The notes under the pieces were generated by a model, which saw only the letters and a list, made by a program, of their open reading frames with translations, ran no database searches and was not told where the DNA came from. Both the position numbers and the translations under genes were made by a program. A stretch of 64,000 nt of DNA from Sulfolobales archaeon (GTDB lineage Archaea > Thermoproteota > Thermoprotei_A > Sulfolobales > NBVN01): the NCBI GenBank assembly GCA_025058345.1, contig JANXEN010000004.1, positions 114,929-178,928 on the forward strand. The letters run 5' to 3'. Shown piece by piece: positions 12,258-64,000 of this stretch. The number at the start of each line of letters is the position of its first letter. The first letter of the stretch is position 1.

Positions 12258-12329
12258 ATAACCAACAGTTTTAAAATCCCTTAATTGAAGTGTTTACTGG
12301 GATATATCATCAAGGTATTTAAAGAGTCA

Positions 12330-12911
12330 ATGTTGAGTATAGCATCATATGTCGTAAGGTCAGTAGACGTCGTTAAGGAATATCAGGTTGAGGACTTCAT
12401 CAAAGAACTTCTCAACATCTATAACAGTAATAATAAGTTAATCGTGGTCGGTGCAGGTCGTTCAGGACTTATAGGTAGGGCGTTCGCTATGAGGTTAATG
12501 CATTTAGGGTTTAACGTATACGTGCTGGGAGATACTGTAGTACCATCACTACGTCCTAACGACCTAATGATAGCTATTTCAGGTTCAGGTAGGACTAAAT
12601 TAGTAATAACTGTTGCTGAGGCAGCTAAATCCGTTGGAGCTAAGGTAATAGCTATAACGACCTACGTAAACTCACCATTAGCTAATATAGCCGATATGGT
12701 TGTTGAGGTACCCGGTAGGACTAAGATCAGCGACCAAAATGATTACTACTTAAGGCAGTTAATGGGTATCTACGAACCTCTCGCTCCATTAGGCACCCTA
12801 TTTGAGGTAACTACTATGATTATGTTAGATGCTGTAGTGGCTGAGTTAATGGTTAGGTTAGGTAAGACTGAAGAAGATCTGAAGAAACTACATGCTAACA
12901 TAGAGATATAA
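12330..12911 (+). CDS. hxlB: 6-phospho-3-hexuloisomerase (SIS domain), copy 1
   Basis: SIS-domain isomerase interconverting hexulose-6-phosphate and fructose-6-phosphate. In archaea it works with hexulose-phosphate synthase to make ribulose-5-phosphate. The motifs [31 protein letters not shown] and [11 protein letters not shown] are strong. A longer frame opens at TTG 12285. I prefer ATG 12330 because its N-terminus (MLSIASYVV) aligns with the second copy at 36412-36990 and fits the usual 180-200 residues. No hexulose-phosphate synthase is visible in the window. Confidence 0.88.
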
Positions 12912-34045: not shown

Positions 34046-34936
34046 GTGGTTTATATGAATTTAAATACAGTTATTACTGCACTAATAACTCCATTCACTA
34101 AGAACTTTACGTTGTATTTAGAGGGGTTAATGAACTTAGTGGATTTTCAGATGGGTAACGGTGTTAAGGCGTTCTTCATCTGCGGTACCTACGGGTCAGG
34201 TCCCCTAATGAGTGTAGCTGAAAGGAAGAAGGTGGCTGAAGCACTCATTAGTTACGTAGGGGGTAAAGCAACGGTCATAGTCCACGTTGGGGCTAACAAC
34301 GTTGATGATACGTTAGATCTTGCCAGACATGCGGAGAGTATAGGTGCTGATGCCATAGCCTCAGTACCTCCTTACTACTACGTATATGATGACGCTGCGA
34401 TTTTAAATTACTTCAGTAAACTGGTTTCTGAGGTTAAAATCCCGGTGTTCTTATATAATAATCCCGCAAGAACCGGAGTTAAGATTAGTAGTGAGTTGGT
34501 GAGACGTCTGTCTGAGGTCGGCGTAGTTGGTGTTAAAGACAGTAGCTTCGACTTAGTTAGGTTTTATGAGGATATGGCTGTAGTAGATGGTAAGGACTTT
34601 AAATTCATAATAGGGACTGAGGCATTAATGCTTCCAGCTATTATGGCCGGTGCTATGACCGCAGTTTCCGGCCTCTCAAATACGTTCCCTGAGCTAGTAG
34701 TTAAGCTCTATAACCTGATTAAGATGGGTATGTATTCAGAGGCTGTTAAAGTTCAGTTAGATGTGATTAAGGTGAGGAGGGTACTTCATTTAGTTCCAAC
34801 GATTCCGGCAGTTTATGAAGTACTCCGTATGAGGGGTATTGACGTTGGGTACCCAAAACCACCTCTTAGGACGCTGAACACTAAGGAAGTAGAACTAATA
34901 AGGGATGGGTTAATGCGAATCGGTATGCTGAGGTAA
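34046..34936 (+). CDS. DHDPS/NAL-family aldolase, copy 1
   Basis: A 296-residue class I aldolase of the dihydrodipicolinate synthase / N-acetylneuraminate lyase family. The Schiff-base Lys lies in VGVKDSSFD and the catalytic Tyr in VFLYNNPARTG; the pyruvate-binding loop reads CGTYGSG. Family members act on 2-keto-3-deoxy sugar acids, dihydrodipicolinate or hydroxyproline products. The adjacent FGGY kinase, seven bases downstream, suggests a sugar or sugar-acid route rather than lysine synthesis. The start may be GTG 34046 or ATG 34055. Confidence 0.85.
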   Translation: MVYMNLNTVITALITPFTKNFTLYLEGLMNLVDFQMGNGVKAFFICGTYGSGPLMSVAERKKVAEALISYVGGKATVIVHVGANNVDDTLDLARHAESIGADAIASVPPYYYVYDDAAILNYFSKLVSEVKIPVFLYNNPARTGVKISSELVRRLSEVGVVGVKDSSFDLVRFYEDMAVVDGKDFKFIIGTEALMLPAIMAGAMTAVSGLSNTFPELVVKLYNLIKMGMYSEAVKVQLDVIKVRRVLHLVPTIPAVYEVLRMRGIDVGYPKPPLRTLNTKEVELIRDGLMRIGMLR

Positions 34937-34943
34937 TTAAGGT

Positions 34944-36425
34944 TTGAGTGATGATCTTTTTATATCAATTGACTTAGGGACCAGCAGCGTTAAGTTATTC
35001 CTACTTAAGGCTGATGGGTCAATAATTAAGAGTTATGTAGATGCAGTCAACCTAGTTAAGGATCCTTCATTACGTAGTGTTGAGCAGGTGTTGTTTGAGG
35101 TACGTCAGAAGTTTTTCGATGGACTCAAGTATGTTATAAAGGGTTTTGAAAGTAGGGTTTCTGGAATAACATTCAGTAGTTATGGCTATAGTTTAGTGTG
35201 CCTTAACGATAGGTTTGAGCCGTTATCGAATGTTATGACTTACTCAGACGGTAGGGCGGTGAAGGAGCAGAGTATATTAGAGAGCTATGGATCTGACCTC
35301 TATAGGAGGACTGGGTGCCCTCCTCTATACATATATCCTATTGCAAAGTTATTATGGCTTAAGTCTAGGAATGAGTTAGGGAACGTTAGTAAAATATCTT
35401 TCGTTAAAGATTACCTAGTATATATATTAAGTAAGGCCTGGTATGTTGATTTAGGTGTAGCATCAACCACCGGGCTACTTAACACGCATAAATTAGATTG
35501 GGATGATTTAGCTTTAAACTTAGTAGGTATTGACGATAAATCGCTTCCGGAACTTATAGATGGCTCGAAAGTGTTGGACTACATCACGATACCTGAGTTT
35601 AAGGTGGAGAAGATACCCTTAGTACTCGGCTCCATGGATGGCCTCCTCCAGAACTTAGCTTACTCGTTATATGGTGGTGAGGCTGCGATGAATTTAGGGT
35701 CTTCCGCAGCTTTACGTGTAATCGTGAGGGATGTAGTTCTAGATCGAAGTGAGCGTATGAGGTTGTATCACTATTACTTAGCTGATGGCTATAGAGTTAC
35801 TGGGGCGATATTCAACAACGGTATGTCCGCACTTGAGTGGTTTAGGGGATTCGTAGGTAATGATTGGAACTACGTTGAAGAGCGTATTAAGAGTAAAGCA
35901 TCATGTGTTGACGGCATTTACGTGCTCCCATTCGCTCAAGGGGAGGCGTTACCTTACAGAGACCCATACATGAAGTTCACAGTCTTAGGTTTAACGCTCA
36001 GTAATGATGTAGGAGACCTCTTTAGGGCTGTTTTCGAAGGGCTTGGGTATTTATTTAAGGAAACTGTTGGAGCCTTAAAATATAACGGTGTTGACGTCTT
36101 TGAAGTACACTGTGGAGGCGGTGGATGCTTAGTAAATAAAGTAGTTGAAGTAATTAGCAACGTAATGTGTAGGCCTATAGTCACGTATAGGGAGGACGTA
36201 TCTAGAGGTGCTAGTGCTTTAGGTGCATTAGTCACACTCCTGAAGGGGTTGAAATACGTAGGGAGTTTTGAGGAGGTGAAGTTTAAGGCTGTTGAGGAAC
36301 TTAAGTCAGGTGTGGTAAGGCCTAATAACGACCTATGTAGTATTTACGATAGATGCTACGCTGAGTACTTAGAGGTGGTTGATGGTGTTTCGAAGCTTTA
36401 TAAGAAATTGTTTAAGACTTCTTAA
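34944..36425 (+). CDS. FGGY-family carbohydrate kinase
   Basis: A 493-residue sugar kinase. FISIDLGTSSVKLFLL is the ATP phosphate-1 loop; the segment PLVLGSMDGLLQNLA holds the likely catalytic Asp; GGEAAMNLGSSAALRV and HCGGGGCLVNKVVEVISNVM are the second and adenosine-binding motifs. It is closest in look to gluconate- and xylulose-kinase-like FGGY proteins. TTG start at 34944. It is co-transcribed with the preceding aldolase, and its 3' end overlaps the convergent hexuloisomerase gene by 14 bases. Confidence 0.86.
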   Translation: MSDDLFISIDLGTSSVKLFLLKADGSIIKSYVDAVNLVKDPSLRSVEQVLFEVRQKFFDGLKYVIKGFESRVSGITFSSYGYSLVCLNDRFEPLSNVMTYSDGRAVKEQSILESYGSDLYRRTGCPPLYIYPIAKLLWLKSRNELGNVSKISFVKDYLVYILSKAWYVDLGVASTTGLLNTHKLDWDDLALNLVGIDDKSLPELIDGSKVLDYITIPEFKVEKIPLVLGSMDGLLQNLAYSLYGGEAAMNLGSSAALRVIVRDVVLDRSERMRLYHYYLADGYRVTGAIFNNGMSALEWFRGFVGNDWNYVEERIKSKASCVDGIYVLPFAQGEALPYRDPYMKFTVLGLTLSNDVGDLFRAVFEGLGYLFKETVGALKYNGVDVFEVHCGGGGCLVNKVVEVISNVMCRPIVTYREDVSRGASALGALVTLLKGLKYVGSFEEVKFKAVEELKSGVVRPNNDLCSIYDRCYAEYLEVVDGVSKLYKKLFKTS

Positions 36426-36990
36426 TCCTTTGTGTTAACTCGATTATCAAACCATCAAGAAACGCCATAACGGTCACCTCATATAGGGATGCCAGCGGTG
36501 ATAGAGGTTCATAAATTCCTAGGATTTGCCTTGAGAAGTAGTCCTCCTGAGTTGATACCTTAAGCCTCCCAGGAACCTCAACAACTATGTCCGCGAGGTT
36601 TGCTAGCGGTGAATCGCGGAAACTTGTTAGAGCTATTACTTTAGCTCCTATAGATTTAGCTACTTCAGCTGCATCTATGACGAGTTTAGTTCTTCCCGAA
36701 CCACTTATCGCTATCAATATATCTTTAGGCCTTAGAGCAGGTACAATGGTATCGCCCATCACGAACACCTTATAGCCTAAATGCATTAGCCTCACAGCAA
36801 ATGCTTTACCTATAAGTCCCGACCTACCAACACCTACAATGAGGACCCTTCGACCCTCATCTAAAGCACTTATTAGGACCTCAATCATCGACTCAACCTC
36901 TTCACTTTTAATATATGAGATTGCGTTCAAGACATAGTTAGCTAAGTCCCTCATAGTGTTTACGATATGCTTTTCCCTAAGTTCATCCAA
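36412..36990 (-). CDS. hxlB: 6-phospho-3-hexuloisomerase (SIS domain), copy 2
   Basis: A 192-residue SIS-domain protein closely similar to the copy at 12330-12911. The two share [49 protein letters not shown] and a C-terminal LGIYEPLSPLASLYEVT. The frame opens at TTG 36990 with AGGG upstream; ATG at 36952-36954 aligns with the copy-1 start and is the alternative. Two isomerases in 25 kb without a visible hexulose-phosphate synthase is notable. This one lies next to sugar kinase and aldolase genes. Confidence 0.87.
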   Translation of the reverse strand: MDELREKHIVNTMRDLANYVLNAISYIKSEEVESMIEVLISALDEGRRVLIVGVGRSGLIGKAFAVRLMHLGYKVFVMGDTIVPALRPKDILIAISGSGRTKLVIDAAEVAKSIGAKVIALTSFRDSPLANLADIVVEVPGRLKVSTQEDYFSRQILGIYEPLSPLASLYEVTVMAFLDGLIIELTQRIKKS

Positions 36991-38606: not shown

Positions 38607-39470
38607 ATGGGGATAGCGACGAGAATCGACGACGTCATACATAGCCTCAGTCCCGGTATTAAGGAGAAATTCCTAGCCCTTATTGAATGGTTTAAGCCAT
38701 TTGAAGGTGTTGTAGTTGTTTCATTTTCTGGAGGCTTAGATAGCTCTGTAGTATTGGCTGCAGCCACGTTAGCTAAAGGTGTTGATAAAGTAGTTGCTGT
38801 AACTGCGGTGTCTCCCATCCGTCTTGACGATGATATTAAGTGGGCTAAAACCGTAGTTGATGTTTTGAACGTTAAGCACCTAGTGTTTGAGGTCGACGAG
38901 CTCAGCGACCCTAACTTCGTTGCAAACCCTCCAAATAGGTGCTACTTCTGTAAGAAGTTACTTGCAGGGAAATTACTGGAGATTGCGGGGGATTATGGTG
39001 CTGAGGTAATTGTAGACGGTACTAATGCATCCGACGTCTCCGACTTTAGACCCGGATACTTAGCATTTAAGGAAGTAGGTATTAGAAGTCCCTTACTGGA
39101 ACTCGGTATCACTAAGGATGAGGTTAGGGCTGTAGCGAAGATTCTCGAACTTCCGAACTGGGGTGAGCAGCCGAGGGCTTGCTTAGCTACTAGAATACCC
39201 TACGGTGAACCAATAAGTGCTGAGAAGCTACAAAGGATTAAGGAAGCTGAACGAATTGTAAAGGATATAGTAAAGTTAACTGTTGTTAGAGTTAGAGATC
39301 ATGGAGATGTAGCTAGGATTGAAGTAGGAAACGGTGAGAGACGTAAGTTCTTCGATGAGAGTATTATGGATAGAGTAAATCTAGAACTTAGAAAGTTAGG
39401 CTATAGATACGTTGCACTCGATCTTCAAGGCTATAGAAGCGGCAGCCTCAATGAAGCATTAAGGAAGTAG
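38607..39470 (+). CDS. larE: LarE-type ATP-dependent sulfur transferase (nickel-pincer cofactor synthesis)
   Basis: A 287-residue PP-loop protein. The loop is SGGLDSS at residues 41-47. RCYFCKK (C112, C115) and the RACLATRIPYG segment with C192 match LarE; in Lactobacillus LarE the cysteine of the latter segment is sacrificed as sulfur donor. LarE converts the two carboxylates of the nicotinate-derived cofactor to thiocarboxylates before nickel insertion by LarC. LarB and LarC are not visible in the window, but a LarA-family protein is encoded at 61125-62414. Other LarE-like proteins may act on different acceptors. Confidence 0.85.
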   Translation: MGIATRIDDVIHSLSPGIKEKFLALIEWFKPFEGVVVVSFSGGLDSSVVLAAATLAKGVDKVVAVTAVSPIRLDDDIKWAKTVVDVLNVKHLVFEVDELSDPNFVANPPNRCYFCKKLLAGKLLEIAGDYGAEVIVDGTNASDVSDFRPGYLAFKEVGIRSPLLELGITKDEVRAVAKILELPNWGEQPRACLATRIPYGEPISAEKLQRIKEAERIVKDIVKLTVVRVRDHGDVARIEVGNGERRKFFDESIMDRVNLELRKLGYRYVALDLQGYRSGSLNEALRK

Positions 39471-56487: not shown

Positions 56488-56664
56488 ATGATGAGGTCTC
56501 AGAAAGTGTATGTTGCTTTATTAGTGTTGTTTACGGCTCTCTTCTACTTAGTGCCTTACACTCTTTACGTAGGTGTTAGGGGCTTCACGTTATTTACTTA
56601 CTGGTCCTTACTTACGCTGCTGTGGATTGCGATAACCTTAATTTATCTGAGGAGGTGGGGTTGA
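56488..56664 (+). CDS. small two-helix membrane protein, partner of the symporter
   Basis: A 58-residue protein with two hydrophobic segments (YVALLVLFTALFYLVPYTLY and FTYWSLLTLLWIAITLIYL) and a basic end LRRWG. AGGAGGT at 56481-56487 precedes ATG codons at 56488 and 56491. The symporter start codon immediately follows its stop. Small DUF997/DUF3311-like proteins pair with sodium:solute symporters in this way, for example beside panF. It is shorter than most gene-calling cut-offs. Confidence 0.8.
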   Translation: MMRSQKVYVALLVLFTALFYLVPYTLYVGVRGFTLFTYWSLLTLLWIAITLIYLRRWG

Positions 56665-58128
56665 TTGTTAGCTCATTTCGCTGTTTTCTTAGCTGCCTAT
56701 ATCGTATTAGGTACTTTAATAGCTGTCATTTCTAGGAGGTTTGGCGTTAAGTCCACTCGTGAGTATTTCGTAGGTAATTACAGGTTGGGTGGGTTCTTAT
56801 CATCTATGACTTACGCAGCAACTACTTACAGCGCATTTATGATGGTTGGGTTAGTTGGGCTTACATACGCTACCGGTGTTGGTGCCTTAGGTTTTGAGTT
56901 GATTTACTTACTAGCTACTTTAGCTTTACTGGCTATTTTCTCAAAGAAGGTGTGGTTAATGGCTAGGGAGCATGGTTGGGTAAGTCCTTCAGAGATGCTT
57001 TCAGGTCTTTACGGAAGTAAGTTGTTAGGTAAGCTCACCGCACTCACCTACTTGATATCGCTAATTCCATACATATCAGCTCAGGTAATAGGTATAGGGA
57101 CAATATTCGAGAGCTTAGGCCTAAATTACTTCGTAGGAGTTTCCGTAGCTGCCTTCCTAATCCTCCTCTGGACTATATTAGCAGGTATATGGAGCGTAGC
57201 TACTACAGATGCTTACCAAGCAATTTTAATGATCGTCGCATCTGTAGTATTCCTAGTAACTACCTCAATTAAGATGTCCTCCCTAAACGTAAGCGATGTT
57301 GTAGTAGCTTTAGATAAGGTCGGTGTAACCGGCATCACCCCCTTCTGGTCCTTCAGTACCTTCCTAGCATATACATTGCCTTGGATATTTTTCGCAGTTA
57401 CCAATCCTCAAGTAGTTCAGAGGATGTTCATGCCGGTGAACGAGAAAGCCCTTAAAAACACCATCAAATATTTCTCACTGTATGGCTATGCATATACGTT
57501 AATAGTCGTTACTGTGGGACTTATGGCTAGGGCGTTAACAGAGTTTAAGCTACTTCCCGTAATTACTAATAGGGATTTAGTTACTCCGACCCTAGCTCTG
57601 ACTTTCGACCCGTCACTGACTTCTCTAATCTTCGTATCAATCATAGCTGCTGCCGTATCAACCGCTAACTCCATAATCCTCAGCATAGCCTCATCAATAA
57701 TTAGGGATTTCTACGAAGTTGGGGCTAGGAAAGTAAGCGCTGGCCGTATCCTACTATACAGTAACTTAGTCGTGGTCTGCTTAACCGTAATAAGTATGTT
57801 GGTTGCTTACTTAAGGCCTGGATTCGTTGTCGAGATGTCAGTACTGTCCTCAGTTATACTCCTCCCACTAGCTCCTATAACGATTACTGGGTGGTTAAGT
57901 CCTACTAGGGCTAAGAAGTTAATCCCTGGAGCTGTAGCGGGTTTAGTTGGGGGTGCTGCCTTCGCGTTATATAACGCATTGATCTACGGCCCCGTTAGGA
58001 CGTTCTTAGCGGTTTCTTACGGGCTTCCGATATCGTTCTGGGTATTGGCGATAGCTACTGCATCCATATTAGTTAACTACCTGTTCATTAATCTTAAGTC
58101 TAAGGAAGTCCGTAATGTAATAACGTGA
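56665..58128 (+). CDS. sodium:solute symporter (SSF family)
   Basis: A 487-residue symporter with about thirteen helices. SRRFGVKSTREYFVGNYRLGGFLSS and ATTYSAFMMVGLVGL near the N-terminus, and GIWSVATTDAYQAILMI around helix 5, are typical SSF signatures. IAAAVSTANSIILSIASSIIRDFYE is the sodium-site helix region. The substrate may be a carboxylate, considering the neighbouring aldolase and dehydrogenase genes. TTG start at 56665 with GGAGGTGGGG upstream. Confidence 0.92.
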   Translation: MLAHFAVFLAAYIVLGTLIAVISRRFGVKSTREYFVGNYRLGGFLSSMTYAATTYSAFMMVGLVGLTYATGVGALGFELIYLLATLALLAIFSKKVWLMAREHGWVSPSEMLSGLYGSKLLGKLTALTYLISLIPYISAQVIGIGTIFESLGLNYFVGVSVAAFLILLWTILAGIWSVATTDAYQAILMIVASVVFLVTTSIKMSSLNVSDVVVALDKVGVTGITPFWSFSTFLAYTLPWIFFAVTNPQVVQRMFMPVNEKALKNTIKYFSLYGYAYTLIVVTVGLMARALTEFKLLPVITNRDLVTPTLALTFDPSLTSLIFVSIIAAAVSTANSIILSIASSIIRDFYEVGARKVSAGRILLYSNLVVVCLTVISMLVAYLRPGFVVEMSVLSSVILLPLAPITITGWLSPTRAKKLIPGAVAGLVGGAAFALYNALIYGPVRTFLAVSYGLPISFWVLAIATASILVNYLFINLKSKEVRNVIT

Positions 58129-58188
58129 TGGATTATAATTGTTTAAGGTATAAATATCTCAAAAATTAACATTATTAAGGTGTTGTTT

Positions 58189-59175
58189 ATGCGTTTTGAA
58201 TCTCTTAAAGAGTTCTTAATGAGGGGTTCAGTACTAGTCGTTCAGATGACCCCATTCACTAAGGACGATGAGGTGGATTTCGAAGGCATTAGGGAGAACA
58301 CTAAATACTTAGTTGAGGTGGGTAAGGGAAGCCCGCTTGCGTTAGTTCCATGCGGGAGTAACGGTGAGTTCTACGCGATGAAAGAAGATGAAATTAAGAA
58401 GGTCATCGAAGTTGTGGTTGAGGAGGCTGGTGGTAAGGTACCTGTTATCGCGGGTACAGGTGCTGCTGGAACTAAAGTAGCGGTAGAGCTCAGTAAGTAT
58501 TCCCAAGATGTTGGTGCTGACGGTGTTCAGGTAGTTCTTCCTTACTACCACGTACCTGATGAGGAAGGTATGTACCTCCATTACAGGAAAATAGCTGAGG
58601 CTTTAGATATCGGCGTCATGGTCTACAATAACCCCAGCGTATCTAAGGTCTATGTAAGGCCTGCATTGATGAGGAGGATTGCTGAAATTCCGAACATAGT
58701 TGGCGTTAAGGAAAACACCCCATTTATAGATGTCTTCTACCAGCAGGTGAAGTCTGTAGGGCATAAAATACCTATAGTTCAGGGACGTGGTGAGTGGTGG
58801 TACGCAGCTACACTACCTTACGGTGCTAGGGGATTCGTATCAGGCCTAGCTAACTTCATGCCTGAATTCAGCTTAGAGTTACTTAAGGCTGGGAACGAAG
58901 GTGATTGGAAGAAAGTACATGAGTTAGTTAAGAAGTTAGAACCTCTCGACGAGTTCATAGCTAAGATGCGTGAGAAGTACGGGCCGTCGACGGCAGTTCT
59001 ACAGCCACCCTACGGGACATCATACATCTACATGAGTGTTAGGAAGGCAGCTATGGAGATATTAGGGCTTAAAGGAGGTAGTATGAGGCTACCCCTAGTT
59101 AATTTAAGGGATGAGGATAGGGCTGAGTTAGAGGAAGTTCTCCTAAATAAGTTAAGGCTTAAGAGGATTAAGTAA
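58189..59175 (+). CDS. DHDPS/NAL-family aldolase, copy 2
   Basis: A roughly 328-residue class I aldolase-type protein. VPCGSNGEFYAM is the pyruvate-binding loop, VMVYNNPSVSK contains the Tyr, and VGVKENTPF holds the Schiff-base Lys. It has a C-terminal extension compared with copy 1 at 34046 and is only distantly similar to it. Its place after the symporter suggests breakdown of an imported keto or hydroxy acid. ATG 58189 with AAGGTG upstream is preferred over TTG 58180. Confidence 0.85.
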   Translation: MRFESLKEFLMRGSVLVVQMTPFTKDDEVDFEGIRENTKYLVEVGKGSPLALVPCGSNGEFYAMKEDEIKKVIEVVVEEAGGKVPVIAGTGAAGTKVAVELSKYSQDVGADGVQVVLPYYHVPDEEGMYLHYRKIAEALDIGVMVYNNPSVSKVYVRPALMRRIAEIPNIVGVKENTPFIDVFYQQVKSVGHKIPIVQGRGEWWYAATLPYGARGFVSGLANFMPEFSLELLKAGNEGDWKKVHELVKKLEPLDEFIAKMREKYGPSTAVLQPPYGTSYIYMSVRKAAMEILGLKGGSMRLPLVNLRDEDRAELEEVLLNKLRLKRIK

Positions 59176-59197
59176 TTTAAAAAGTAGTGTTTGGTTT

Positions 59198-60205
59198 TTA
59201 AAAAGTCAGTACAGCCCTCCCCTTAACTTCCCCTCTCCTGAGTTTCTCAATAGCGGCGTTAACTTCCTCAAACTTGAATAACTCAACCCTAGGCCTCACC
59301 ATGCCAGCCGCAACTAACTCCAAACTCCTCATTATATCGCCTCTAGTGAAGCCTATATTACCAACCACCTTAACGTCTTTAAGTATCCAATCTATGACCG
59401 GTAGTGATAACTCACCAACAGGTAGGCCGACAAGCACTAAGGTACCTCCAGCCCTCAGCGAGTCGTACGCCTGCCTCATAGCCTTCAGAGACTCTACAGG
59501 AGTTACAGCCACATCAGCACCGCCTAAGTTCTTTATATACTTAACTGGGTCCTCCTTAGATGCGTTAACTGTGTAGTCAGCCCCAACCTCCTTAGCGAAC
59601 TCCAACTTACTCTCCAATATATCTACAGCAACAACCTTAGCCCCTAAAGCCTTAGCTACTTGAACTGCGTTATGTCCTAATCCCCCAACACCGAATACGG
59701 AGACTAAATCCCCAGGCACTACCTTAGATGCGTAGGTGAGGGACCTATATGGGGTTGCTACTGCGTCAGTAGCTGAGGTAGCTTCAGGGAATGACACACC
59801 TTCAGGTATTTTAATTAAATGAGTTGCTGGGGCCTTAACAAGCTCAGCGTACCCACCATCTACTACGTAGCCTGTATTTAACTGATTTTCGCAGATGTTT
59901 TCACGTCCTGAAAGGCATGGCTTACACCTACCGCATGTCCACCATAGCCATGACAAAGCGACCTTATCACCTGGTTTTAGATGCTTAACACCATCGCCGA
60001 CACTCTCCACAACTCCGGCTACCTCATGTCCCAGGATTATAGGTAGCTTAGCTGGTGGGATTTTACCGTCGATGATCTCAAGGTCTGAGTGACATATACC
60101 TACAGCCTTAACCTTAATTAAGGCTTCACCATAAGCGGGTACAGGATCGGGGACCTCCTCAATAACTAATGGTTTTTGAAGTTCACGAAGTAATGCTGCT
60201 TTCAT
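59198..60205 (-). CDS. zinc-dependent alcohol dehydrogenase
   Basis: A 335-residue medium-chain dehydrogenase. GICHSDLEIIDG and LGHEVAGVVESVGDGV carry the catalytic zinc ligands, CGRCKPCLSGRENIC the structural zinc, and VFGVGGLGHNAVQVAKALG the NAD fold, followed by VVAVDI. It has the primary or secondary alcohol dehydrogenase layout of archaeal MDR enzymes. A TATA-like TATAAAATATA ends about 17 bases before the ATG, so the transcript is probably leaderless or nearly so. Confidence 0.92.
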   Translation of the reverse strand: MKAALLRELQKPLVIEEVPDPVPAYGEALIKVKAVGICHSDLEIIDGKIPPAKLPIILGHEVAGVVESVGDGVKHLKPGDKVALSWLWWTCGRCKPCLSGRENICENQLNTGYVVDGGYAELVKAPATHLIKIPEGVSFPEATSATDAVATPYRSLTYASKVVPGDLVSVFGVGGLGHNAVQVAKALGAKVVAVDILESKLEFAKEVGADYTVNASKEDPVKYIKNLGGADVAVTPVESLKAMRQAYDSLRAGGTLVLVGLPVGELSLPVIDWILKDVKVVGNIGFTRGDIMRSLELVAAGMVRPRVELFKFEEVNAAIEKLRRGEVKGRAVLTF

Positions 60206-60344
60206 AATTTCACATTATAATTAATATATTTTATAATTATAACTCTTAATGAACATTATCTAACGCTTCAGTAACGTAATGAAATAAAGGAAATCACTTA
60301 GATTTTAGGGTTTACCGCTAGACTGTGGGGAAACTTCTAGCAGA

Positions 60345-61094
60345 TTAAGTCCTACCAACCAGTAATGTAAGCGAGTGTTCCGGAATTGGCTCCATCATAA
60401 GTATTTGATAAACTGGCGGCGGGTACTTACTCCCCACGCTTTTGAGTCTCCCCATAGCAGCCCTCAGGTCCTCAACTCTCATACCAACCCATAACTCATC
60501 ATCTTGAGCCTCTGCTAAACCTCTAGCACCTCCACACGGTATCGTAAGCCATGGTGACCTACCGTTAATGACCGTAGCTACTATTTCACATGCGGCATGA
60601 CCGTTGAAGTCAGACTTAGGTTTAATACCCTGTGAGTCGAAATACCCTACCAACAGTAGGTATGCCTGAGCCGAATTGGCCATCATGATGATGCCATCTG
60701 GGTTTAAGTGCAGTTCGTCAAACTTCTTAAGCGGTGCTAGTACTCCAGATTTATACTTGCCCATTGGCAGTGTGTGTATGTTTGCTATTACTGACTTAGC
60801 TATCTCTTCAGGCATTTTCCTTAAAGTCACCCACTTCCTGTAGTAGTTATCGGGTAATTCCTTAAACCCCAGTATATACGTACCTATTACGCAGGCATCT
60901 ACGTTTTCAGCAGATATACCCACAGTTTTACCGTAGATGCTTGCTAGCTTCATGATCTGACATAACGCTAAGTTTTTATTGATGTATGGTAGGTCTGAAC
61001 GCACTTCCTCAAATAGCTTAATGCCTATAGGGTCTGATTTAAGCTTAATTAACTCAATTAAGTCTTTGTGAAGGGACTCATAAGAATTAAACAT
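60345..61094 (-). CDS. DUF169-family protein
   Basis: A roughly 249-residue DUF169 protein. KSDPIGIKLFEE near the N-terminus, CQIMKLASIYGKTVGISAENVDAC, and the C-terminal IPCGGARGLAEAQDDELWVGM are typical of the family, whose function is unknown. Cysteines at conserved positions (CQIM, DACVIG, HAACEI, IPCGG) may bind a metal or cluster. ATG 61094 with GGTGAG upstream is preferred over GTG 61106. It is directly downstream of the larA homologue and probably co-transcribed. Confidence 0.8.
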   Translation of the reverse strand: MFNSYESLHKDLIELIKLKSDPIGIKLFEEVRSDLPYINKNLALCQIMKLASIYGKTVGISAENVDACVIGTYILGFKELPDNYYRKWVTLRKMPEEIAKSVIANIHTLPMGKYKSGVLAPLKKFDELHLNPDGIIMMANSAQAYLLLVGYFDSQGIKPKSDFNGHAACEIVATVINGRSPWLTIPCGGARGLAEAQDDELWVGMRVEDLRAAMGRLKSVGSKYPPPVYQILMMEPIPEHSLTLLVGRT

Positions 61095-61124
61095 AGAACT
61101 CACCACTAGTATTTGATTTTTAGG

Positions 61125-62414
61125 TTAAATCTTTTTCGTAGCTATAGGGTATACCTCACCACCGTGGTGTATTATACCTACCTTAGCGTTACTTCCATAC
61201 TTCTTTAAAGCATGCTCTAACGCATCTATTACCGTTTCAGCATGTTTGAATCTAAGTACTGCCTTATCTTCTTTCGTCAACCCCTTCGAAACACACATGC
61301 ATTCAACCCTGTGTATATACTTTGTATGGACGTAAACCGTTGCAAGACCAACTAAGTCTTCCTCACTGCCTTCCTTAATCACTTTCTGCAACTCCTCCAC
61401 AGTTGCGTATCTATACTTCTCAAAGGTCTTACCATGTATCGGTGATATCCTATCTGGGCAGTCAGTGTAGAGTATTACCGTACCTCCTTCCCTAACTCCT
61501 AGTTGGCTATGTACGAATCCTTTAATCGCCTGCCAGTAGTCAATTACTGCTGGATAAGTATTAACCACCACGATATCTGCTGGCTCAGGTATCTCCCTCC
61601 TGTAAATAGTTTCAGCTACCTTAACCCCCTCCCTAAACGCCCTCCTCATATCTCCAGCAACTACCTTAACTACCTCCCCCCTACCGTTGAACACTACGTT
61701 TACTATGAAGTCAAGCCCCACGACATCAGCTACCTCCTCCATCTCCCTACGAACTACGTTGTCAGGATTTCCAAGCAGGTTCATAGGGTCCTCCAGAGCA
61801 GCAAGTATGTGGGTGTATGCGGTGGTCTTCTCACCACACACGCCTGGCTGTATGATCTTAGCACCGCCTCCGTAGCCTGCGTAAAGATGCGGTATTATGC
61901 TACCTAAACCCACTACGAAATCAGCCTCATACACTAACTTATTCACGTAGACTGGAGTTCCGTTCTTAGTTTTCCCAACATACACTAACTTACTGCTGTC
62001 AAGCCACTCATGATTCACTATCTTAACCCTCCTGACGACATCCTCACCAAAACACCTCAGTACTTCATCCTCACTCATATATCTGTGGGTGCCTAAAGCA
62101 ATCACTACAGTTATATCGCTATCAGGTACTCCAGCCCTATTCAACTCATCAAGAAGTATTGGAAGTATCTTATCCCTAGGTGTAGCTCTCGTAATGTCGT
62201 CAGCAACTACAGCAACCTTCATCCCAGGCCTTAATAAATTATCTAAGGATTTACATCCGATAGGGTTTTTAATAGCGTCCCTTACAGCCTTACCTAAATC
62301 AGGTACTGGCGGTAAGTTATTAGGACCTACCTCATATACTATTTTATCGCCATACATCCTCTTAATGAGCTCTACAGACTCAACCCATTTACTCATGAAC
62401 TCATTAACATACAT
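61125..62414 (-). CDS. larA: LarA-family nickel-pincer racemase/epimerase
   Basis: A roughly 429-residue LarA/DUF2088 protein. DDITRATPRDKILPILLDEL, ALGTHRYMSEDE with a cofactor-contacting His, and PHLYAGYGGGAKIIQPGVCG with the Lys that holds the nickel-pincer nucleotide in known LarA are all present. In Lactobacillus, LarA interconverts D- and L-lactate; relatives act on other 2-hydroxyacids. LarE, needed for the cofactor, is encoded at 38607, and NikR at 13971. The neighbouring DUF169, dehydrogenase, aldolase and symporter suggest a hydroxyacid route. ATG 62414 with GGAG just upstream; GTG 62426 is the alternative. Confidence 0.87.
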   Translation of the reverse strand: MYVNEFMSKWVESVELIKRMYGDKIVYEVGPNNLPPVPDLGKAVRDAIKNPIGCKSLDNLLRPGMKVAVVADDITRATPRDKILPILLDELNRAGVPDSDITVVIALGTHRYMSEDEVLRCFGEDVVRRVKIVNHEWLDSSKLVYVGKTKNGTPVYVNKLVYEADFVVGLGSIIPHLYAGYGGGAKIIQPGVCGEKTTAYTHILAALEDPMNLLGNPDNVVRREMEEVADVVGLDFIVNVVFNGRGEVVKVVAGDMRRAFREGVKVAETIYRREIPEPADIVVVNTYPAVIDYWQAIKGFVHSQLGVREGGTVILYTDCPDRISPIHGKTFEKYRYATVEELQKVIKEGSEEDLVGLATVYVHTKYIHRVECMCVSKGLTKEDKAVLRFKHAETVIDALEHALKKYGSNAKVGIIHHGGEVYPIATKKI

Positions 62415-62676
62415 AACTCCTACCAATTACTACTTAATTTTAAGATTTAATACCTTGCTCATAATCGGATAGCTTCTACACGTTCCTTAAATAGATGTAG
62501 GCACCGAGCCTCAGCAGTCGTTAGGGATTTAAGCGTGAAACACAGGTCTTTAAGGTTAATTTTATTTATTGTTTAGTAATACCTTCAAGATAATATGTTT
62601 AAGTGCAGCAATTCGAAAATTAAATATAGGCTTTTAATTCATTAGACTTATAAGTTACGTTGTCATTAAATTTTAG

Positions 62677-63132
62677 GTGAATTTTAAATTGATCGTCGAT
62701 AAGATCAGAAAAGCATATGATATTGAGGAAAAAGCAGTTAATTCCTATGTCCACGCTCTACGTGTGTTGAAGCTGCAGGGAATGGATATGAAAGATTTAG
62801 AGGAAGTTATTAAGAAAGTAGCTATCGATACATTAATCCATAAGGAGTTAATGAACGGGGTTTTAAAGGCGTATGAGGAGGCCTTAAAGAAAGATAAGGA
62901 GGTTATGAAGGATATTGAGGGGTTGAGGCCTTCAGTCTCCGAGAAGGCTTTAATGGTGAAGCTACTTAAGGATCACTTAATTATTGAGGCAGAAATGATT
63001 GAGTTTTATAGGAATTTAGCTGCAGGTCTCCAATACCCCGTCCTCAAGGATCTTGCTGAAGCTCTTGCTAAGAATGAGGAGGAACATCATCGATTAATAA
63101 GCGACCTGATAAAGAAGTACGAACATCAATGA
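62677..63132 (+). CDS. ferritin-like/rubrerythrin-like helical protein
   Basis: A 151-residue four-helix protein. EEKAVNSYVHAL, IHKELMNGVL, IIEAEMIEFYRNLA and NEEEHHRLI supply the paired Glu and His residues of a ferritin-like di-iron site. No rubredoxin domain follows. Likely roles are iron handling or peroxide reduction. The GTG at 62677 lacks a ribosome site; TTG at 62689 has AGGTGA eight bases upstream and may be the true start. Confidence 0.75.
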   Translation: MNFKLIVDKIRKAYDIEEKAVNSYVHALRVLKLQGMDMKDLEEVIKKVAIDTLIHKELMNGVLKAYEEALKKDKEVMKDIEGLRPSVSEKALMVKLLKDHLIIEAEMIEFYRNLAAGLQYPVLKDLAEALAKNEEEHHRLISDLIKKYEHQ

Positions 63133-63164
63133 AGCAGTGTATCTGAAACTAATCAATTTTTCAA

Positions 63165-63881
63165 TCACTTCATCTTCAGCTCATGGATTACTAGAGGTGT
63201 TAGGTCACCACTCCACTTAAGTATCCACACACCCCTCTCAGCAGCTCTAACTAAAGCTCCAGGCGTAGCGTAGTCCACATAAACAACCTTAATGAGCTTC
63301 GGCCTCAGTAAGTCAGGCCTTAAACTCCTCAATAAGTCTATCTTCCTCTCCAACTCATCTATGAGTCTCTCACCCAACCTCACGGTAGCTTCCCCAACCA
63401 CACATAAATCATCACTAACCCCATATAAATCAACCTCACCTAAACCATCAATGAATAACCTACTTAACTTTATATCTAAACCTAACTTCTCCCTCAACTT
63501 ATAAGCAACAACATCAATACCTTCCTCCTCAACCGTTATAGTAAGCCTCTCCACAGTCACTGAAAGCCTATTAACAGTTTCCCACAGCTTACTCTGAGCT
63601 TCCCATAGTTTGCTTTGTTCTTCTCTTAGTGCTCTTATTTCGTCCCATATCTTGTTTTGGCCTTCTCTTAGTGCTTTGATTTCTTCCCATAGTTTGCTTT
63701 GTTCTTCTCTTAGTGCTCTTATTTCGTCCCATATCTTGTTTTGGCCTTCTCCAATCCTTTCAAGCCCTTTAAGTATTTCAGATAGTCCTAAGTAACCCGC
63801 TACTGCGTATCTGAACTCTAAGTCCGAATCTAAAGTCTTCAGTACTTTCATTCTCTCTTTCTTAGTAAGGAGTTCAGCCAT
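63165..63881 (-). CDS. DUF3782-like coiled-coil protein with nuclease-like C-terminal domain
   Basis: A roughly 238-residue protein. A short N-terminal helical segment is followed by a heptad-rich coiled coil with repeated IWDEIRALREEQSKLWEEI units (about residues 50-110). The C-terminal domain reads INGLGEVDLYGVSDDLCVVGEAT-like elements (D, then GEAT), resembling the D-ExT/K core of PD-(D/E)XK folds. Such DUF3782 proteins are common in Thermoproteota and have no known function. ATG 63881 has GAGGTG six bases upstream. An exact DNA repeat underlies the coiled coil. Confidence 0.78.
   Translation of the reverse strand: MAELLTKKERMKVLKTLDSDLEFRYAVAGYLGLSEILKGLERIGEGQNKIWDEIRALREEQSKLWEEIKALREGQNKIWDEIRALREEQSKLWEAQSKLWETVNRLSVTVERLTITVEEEGIDVVAYKLREKLGLDIKLSRLFIDGLGEVDLYGVSDDLCVVGEATVRLGERLIDELERKIDLLRSLRPDLLRPKLIKVVYVDYATPGALVRAAERGVWILKWSGDLTPLVIHELKMK
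63599..63751. repeat. 84-base tandem repeat inside the DUF3782-like gene
   Basis: Bases 63599-63667 and 63683-63751 are identical over 69 bases, with a period of 84 bases (28 residues, four heptads). Each unit also splits into two related 42-base halves. The repeats encode the coiled coil in frame. Near-perfect DNA identity implies recent duplication or ongoing gene conversion. Confidence 0.92.
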
Positions 63882-64000
63882 CACACCCACCTCAACTTAC
63901 TCACCTCTTCCATCAATTTAAAACTATCATTGAACATCTCTATCGGATAATTAATTATTAAAAAAAGATTTAAGGCGGTTGTACGTCTTTAAGCTTTTCA

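Follow-up and report, generated by a model that had tools for sequence, protein, structure and literature searches.

The locus and its setting

The window analysed here is a 64,000-nucleotide stretch of contig JANXEN010000004.1 (positions 114,929 to 178,928) from a Sulfolobales archaeon, and it holds six genes within 6 kb that may handle a hydroxy or oxo acid (Table 1). These encode a sodium:solute symporter with a small membrane partner, a class I lyase of the DHDPS family, a zinc-dependent alcohol dehydrogenase (ADH), a DUF169 protein and a homologue of LarA, whose family comprises 2-hydroxyacid racemases and epimerases that use the nickel-pincer nucleotide (NPN). A first-pass annotation, made from the letters alone, had named these genes and had placed LarE in the same window. 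All are present as open reading frames (ORFs) at the positions given, and the family matches of the locus genes and of LarE are far beyond chance, except that the 58-residue partner has no Pfam match.

Table 1. Genes of the locus and the cofactor gene in the same window
Product	Position	Strand	Remarks
Small membrane protein, 58 aa	56488-56664	+	abuts symporter ORF; likely symporter partner
SSF-family sodium:solute symporter	56665-58128	+	PF00474, 104.6 bits (cut-off 22.8)
DHDPS-family class I lyase	58180-59175	+	PF00701, 202.3 bits
Zinc-dependent MDR alcohol dehydrogenase (ADH)	59198-60205	-	PF08240, PF00107
DUF169 protein (COG2043)	60345-61106	-	PF02596, 113.2 bits (cut-off 27); near full-length match
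LarA homologue (NPN 2-hydroxyacid racemase/epimerase family)	61125-62426	-	PF09861, 217.5 bits (cut-off 23.3)
LarE, NPN-cofactor sulfur insertase	38607-39470	+	TIGR00268, 270.8 bits (cut-off 150)

The genes form two sets that converge between 59175 and 59198, with the partner, symporter and lyase genes on the plus strand and the ADH, DUF169 and LarA genes on the minus strand. The gaps are 18 bases between the LarA and DUF169 genes, 139 between the DUF169 and ADH genes, 51 between the symporter and lyase genes and 22 between the convergent ADH and lyase genes. It is proposed that the locus consists of two adjoining transcription units, one for the symporter, its partner and the lyase and the other for LarA-DUF169 with the ADH. 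The LarA ORF has a longer form that starts at TTG, and the in-frame ATG inside it at 62414, the end point of the first-pass annotation, is the probable start.

The source contig is 183.5 kb long and belongs to a genome (G000) of 1.36 Mb in 54 contigs that is 82.6% complete. The host is probably heat-loving, which we only infer because its nearest named relatives are metagenome-assembled genomes labelled Sulfolobales or Desulfurococcales archaeon. The LarA-DUF169-ADH/DHDPS block recurs at 74-87% identity, although without the symporter, in a second genome of the genus (G001), and the locus is therefore not an assembly artefact.

LarA and its cofactor

In the L. plantarum enzyme, the catalytic residues are Asp72, His108, His174 and Lys298, and those that bind the cofactor are Arg75, Lys184 and His200 (PMC7583248). 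Alignment with solved chains places Asp77, Arg80, His114, His180, Lys190, His206, Gln299 and Lys302 of the window LarA at the catalytic and cofactor positions of LarA and Mar2. With every catalytic and cofactor-binding residue intact, the protein is predicted to be NPN-competent, in keeping with the first-pass view that it needs this cofactor.

The genes for cofactor synthesis are present in the same genome. In addition to LarE, larB and larC, which the annotation had proposed to locate, lie next to each other at G000:C4:5202-7068, and both products are over their cut-offs (LarB, 230.7 bits against 175; LarC, 350.7 bits against 22.1). Neither of the two findings that the annotation had named as refuting, a lack of larB/larC or active-site residues that do not suit the cofactor, is seen, the residues being judged by alignment. 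Among 41 related genomes, LarB, LarC and LarE are each over cut-off in the same six, which include all four that match the window LarA. LarE has an SGGLDS loop at residue 41 and cysteines at 112, 115 and 192. An SGGXDS loop and a CXXC-C motif that is tied to a [4Fe-4S] cluster are described for LarE in PMC9283937, and the window protein is of this CXXC-C type.

The host genome has two further LarA homologues. The second (G000:C44:57745-58866; L027:7692-8894) has the His-Lys pair of malate racemases, scores 456.6 of 500 bits and has as neighbours the TctC/TctA genes of a tricarboxylate transporter and a gene for a GAPDH-domain protein, an arrangement kept in G001 and G004. The third (G000:C51, L028:7020-9731) is 12 bases downstream of a gene for a divalent metal transporter of the Nramp family (184.6 bits, cut-off 50), and this pair is also found in G006 (L034). 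The cluster around the pair in the host is presumably of the ABC-transporter type. A metal-supply link between the Nramp protein and the third LarA is possible.

The substrate pocket of LarA

The reference pocket positions Phe175, Phe176, Tyr294, Val297, Trp358 and Thr359 correspond to Leu181, Tyr182, Trp298, Ile301, Ala362 and Thr363 in the window LarA, and two orthologues have Leu, Tyr/Phe, Trp, Ile, Ala and Thr/Ser. At positions 175, 176, 358 and 359, lactate racemases (LAR) carry Phe, Phe, Trp and Glu/Gln, hydroxyglutarate racemases (HGR) Tyr, Phe, His/Gln and Thr, and gluconate 2-epimerases (GntE) Glu, Val, Ala and His, and the last two positions are His/Gln and Lys in malate racemases (MAR) (PMC11770544). 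The combination Leu, Tyr, Ala and Thr matches none of these four patterns. Likewise, all NCBIfam LarAH models are below cut-off, the best being LarAH6 at 342.9 of 500 bits.

Several assignments were accordingly rejected. A lactate racemase is not indicated by the four pocket residues or by the score (275.6 of 460 bits), and GntE shares the Ala alone. The hydrophobic hydroxyacid racemases of LarAH10 (318.3 of 540 bits) would have Phe/Tyr at position 358, where Ala362 is found. The malate racemase groups LarAH5 and LarAH6 (268.5 of 462 bits, and the LarAH6 score given above) have Lys in place of Thr363.

Malate nevertheless deserves separate mention, as a malate racemase that feeds central metabolism is suggested both by the closest structure, Mar2 (245 bits), and by the best model. 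We consider this quite unlikely. The LarAH6 score is under its cut-off, and Lys351 of Mar2, which pairs with the second carboxylate of malate, is replaced here by Thr and in the two orthologues by Thr/Ser. Moreover, the second LarA of the host is the better malate candidate.

We read the pocket of the window LarA as a separate specificity. With Ala in place of Trp, it probably accepts a side chain that is longer or bulkier. The protein resembles Mar2 (LarAH6, PDB 6d6z) and the broad-spectrum LarA (PDB 9eia) in its family, its catalytic and NPN residues and the LarB, LarC and LarE of its genome, and differs from them in its pocket (Leu181, Tyr182, Trp298, Ala362 and Thr363), its position below the curated LarAH cut-offs and its DUF169 neighbour. 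LarA homologues are often without an assigned substrate, functions having been predicted for a little over half of them (PMC11770544). With its uncommon pocket and complete cofactor machinery, this archaeal subgroup is thus a concrete candidate for assay.

The symporter, the lyase and the dehydrogenase

For the symporter, the best NCBIfam model is panF at 113.7 bits, under the cut-off of 328. Its orthologues in G006 (64%) and G004 (63%) are both upstream of a DHDPS gene. In addition, a similar 55-residue ORF lies directly 5' of the orthologous symporter in G006 (L103:6139-6306), as the small partner does in the window.

The lyase shares PF00701, Lys177, Tyr149 and a GSNGE loop with the DHDPS/N-acetylneuraminate lyase superfamily. 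Lys177 is the putative Schiff-base lysine. The protein is below the cut-offs of the NCBIfam models for dapA, KdgD, nanA and the archaeal KDG aldolase. An identity as DapA was rejected on the dapA score (181 against 206.15 bits); DapA presumably carries an Arg in its YNxPS motif, and the window lyase has none there. Besides the host, orthologues at 75-87% are found among the 41 genomes in G001, G004 and G006 only, a count that leaves out distant paralogues (32-38%) in five genomes.

The ADH is close to structure 1rjw (331 bits), and its orthologues (82-86%) have the same distribution, being confined to G001, G004 and G006 besides the host. In G006 the orthologue (contig C52) clusters with genes for E1 alpha, E1 beta, a histone-deacetylase-domain protein, a lipoyl protein, an E2 catalytic domain and an E3-type oxidoreductase. 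An ADH that is 73% identical to that of the window occurs at locus L055, within a cluster of E1, E2, NAD-kinase-like and DUF169 genes.

A proposed pathway and its weighing against the genomes

We tentatively favour the reading that the symporter, LarA, the lyase and the ADH process a hydroxy or oxo acid and that DUF169 stands outside the nickel chemistry. Here, the symporter would import the acid. LarA, loaded with NPN by the LarB, LarC and LarE of its own genome, would invert a 2-hydroxyacid at C2; the side chain of this acid would be larger than that of lactate and would lack the second carboxylate of malate. The lyase would cleave (or condense) a 2-oxoacid derivative using Lys177, and the ADH would turn the aldehyde or ketone so formed into its alcohol, or the reverse. 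The substrate and the direction given here are proposals, as is any role for DUF169. That the six genes serve one pathway is plausible, on the evidence of few and related genomes. The locus is ordinary in kind and useful as an assay target.

Comparison with relatives shows that the locus is made of joined pieces and is not one conserved unit: the partner, symporter and lyase form one piece, LarA and DUF169 another, and the ADH a third. In G001 the order LarA, DUF169, ADH is kept, followed by the DHDPS gene on the opposite strand. In G006, LarA-DUF169 is on contig C10 and the rest of the locus is elsewhere; the symporter-DHDPS pair and the similar small partner are on C41, where larE-larB-larC is about 3 kb away. 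In G004 a short contig carries the symporter-DHDPS pair, and the ADH orthologue lies on a different one.

Orthologues of the window LarA (at least 75% identity) are found in 3 of the 41 relatives and, across the order, in 3 of 214 genomes. LarA and DUF169 are adjacent in all three of these relatives, with a gap of 18-40 bases. Within the family (25 genomes), the lyase, the ADH and LarB, LarC and LarE are confined to one and the same set of four. These four (G000, G001, G004 and G006) form one clade, with a split support of 95, in a tree of NadE from 27 genomes.

Several of these observations weigh against a joint pathway. As the four genomes form a single clade, the joint presence of the lyase, ADH and cofactor genes may be due to common descent and not to shared function, which makes the linked distribution weak evidence. 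LarA-DUF169, symporter-lyase and ADH are on three different contigs of G006, and G004, which is 82% complete, has the lyase, symporter, ADH and LarB, LarC and LarE without an orthologue of the window LarA. The convergent layout means that there is no operon common to all six genes. Finally, either of the two extra LarA homologues of the host could account for its LarB, LarC and LarE.

These points lead to a serious, if somewhat doubtful, alternative in which the genes are chance neighbours, with LarA-DUF169, symporter-lyase and ADH belonging to separate pathways that rearrangement within the window's genus would have gathered. The scattering in G006 and the restriction to one clade are as this alternative would have it, as are the absence of the symporter from the G001 block and the occurrence of ADH and DUF169 in E1/E2-type clusters that have no LarA. 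It accounts less well for the pairs themselves, since LarA adjoins DUF169 wherever that LarA is found and the symporter adjoins the lyase in 3 of the 4 genomes with that lyase. The shared distribution in the family and the closeness of the G006 symporter-lyase pair to larE-larB-larC also speak against it. The first-pass suggestion that the locus imports and breaks down a hydroxy or keto acid is therefore retained in part: the symporter-lyase pair is kept in two other genera, whereas a single pathway of six genes is not borne out by relatives that have the pieces on different contigs and belong to one clade.

DUF169 and its neighbours

DUF169 is single copy in the host, with one match in the genome. 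Matches are found in 8 of the 41 relatives: six at 54-100%, one at 29% (G004) and one that is a fragment with stops (G002). Three of the six closer relatives are in genomes (G007, G017 and G033) in which there is no LarA match and LarB, LarC and LarE are below cut-off. Cys49, Cys72, Cys173, Cys191 and His170 are invariant across 16 homologues.

The first-pass annotation had suggested that DUF169 might serve the nickel enzyme as an accessory, which would mean a part in cofactor handling or in LarA activation, and had proposed to look for co-occurrence of the two families. The close spacing of the gene pair in three genomes and the invariant Cys and His residues, which could bind metal, are consistent with such a role. 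However, DUF169 occurs in 66 and Lar_N in 147 of 398 genomes from the phylum, with 18 of the Lar_N genomes having only weak matches (E worse than 1e-6), and the two are together in 20 genomes against 21.4 expected (one-sided p 0.70; Lar_N at E<=1e-10, weak set excluded). A laxer Lar_N cut-off (E<=1e-3) points in the opposite direction and counts against our reading of DUF169, with both present in 32 genomes against 24.4 expected (one-sided p 0.024). All 12 of the genomes that it adds are weak Lar_N matches (E worse than 1e-6), and 11 come from one family. The weak matches may be relatives of DUF362, which is placed in the same clan as LarA in PMC11770544. A DUF362 protein with a ferredoxin domain is encoded near a DUF169 gene in one genome of the phylum set (G147, L073:2029-3150).

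The gene neighbourhoods agree with the stricter count. Twenty DUF169 neighbourhoods were examined from the 66 genomes, with LarA adjacency judged from the DUF169 side, and none has a protein similar to the window LarA within four genes on either side. Two of them (L069 and L086, in which all genes were viewed) lack a match to the narrow DUF169 profile, and L087 has a partial match. Six close DUF169 sequences, used in a genome-wide scan, matched 15 loci, possibly not including the host itself, and LarA adjoins DUF169 in two of these, L053 (G001) and L054 (G006). Taken together with the LarA-free genomes described above, these results make a nickel-accessory role very improbable, and the suggestion is set aside. 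This spares a false lead; the E1/E2 neighbourhood of close relatives is a better one.

Adding L082 and L083 from the phylum set gives 17 subfamily loci, and E1/E2-type genes adjoin DUF169 in five of them: L055, L057, L059, L061 and L083. The assignment is based on domain scans for L055, part of L057 and the E1 of L083, and on sequence clustering for L059 and L061. Aldehyde ferredoxin oxidoreductases (AOR) are near DUF169 in L066 and L082. Oxoacid or aldehyde metabolism is thus the recurrent company of the subfamily, with LarA as an exceptional neighbour. Across the phylum, the company of DUF169 is too mixed to name a single function. Most neighbours in that set carry tentative labels, given from the first part of each sequence: pyruvate-carboxylase-type, flavoprotein, aldehyde ferredoxin oxidoreductase and ABC transporter. 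Domain scans cover the L082 AOR, the L083 E1 and, in L073, the DUF362 and radical-SAM genes.

Like the ADH, DUF169 probably has its place in 2-oxoacid/acyl-CoA metabolism. Relatives of both are housed in acetoin/2-oxoacid dehydrogenase clusters (E1, E2, E3, lipoate ligase and an NAD-kinase-like gene, which we take to be AcoX). The window locus differs from these clusters in having none of their genes and LarA, the lyase and the symporter instead. An unlikely extension of this idea is that LarA would supply one 2-hydroxyacid enantiomer, that the ADH and lyase would lead from it to an oxoacid or aldehyde and that DUF169 would be an unrecognised enzyme of the next, acyl-CoA-forming step, replacing or feeding the E1/E2 dehydrogenase found beside DUF169 and the ADH in relatives. 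If true, DUF169 would be placed in a biochemical context for the first time, and a new substrate would be added to those of the LarA superfamily.

The fold offers little further guidance. The AlphaFold2 model of DUF169 has a pLDDT of 85.8, and no solved structure is related to the protein by sequence at E<=1. Foldseek and VIA gave no convincing structural match: the best Foldseek hits are thiolases (E 0.13, weak), and the best VIA score among Foldseek's 1000 is also a weak match to a thiolase-like fold (Z 5.1, root-mean-square deviation 5.2, 154 aligned). A literature search on DUF169 and COG2043 found no function in print. The family is mentioned beside SepRS, in Desulfovibrio nitrate fitness data and in a selenium-associated gene table (PMC5322559, PMC8762117, PMC4001038). 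Searches for DUF169, for COG2043, for LarA with DHDPS in archaea and for LarA with Thermoproteota found no paper on this pairing.

Other genes in the window

A gene for a 4-oxalocrotonate-type tautomerase of 67 residues lies near LarA, at 63971-64000 and beyond the end of the window (L033:8899-9102); it is also present in G001 (79%). A distant tautomerase of this type adjoins DUF169 in G275 (L087). The interval between LarA and the tautomerase (62677-63890) has two genes that are absent from the corresponding place in G001: one product is rubrerythrin-like (33.4 bits), and the other is a coiled-coil protein in which LREEQSKLWEEIKALREGQ-type segments are repeated. Elsewhere in the window, 34046-36990 holds a second DHDPS-family gene and a 6-phospho-3-hexuloisomerase-like gene, another possible sugar-acid locus. 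A further gene there is presumably FGGY-kinase-like, and the gene at 12285-12911 is presumably an SIS paralogue.

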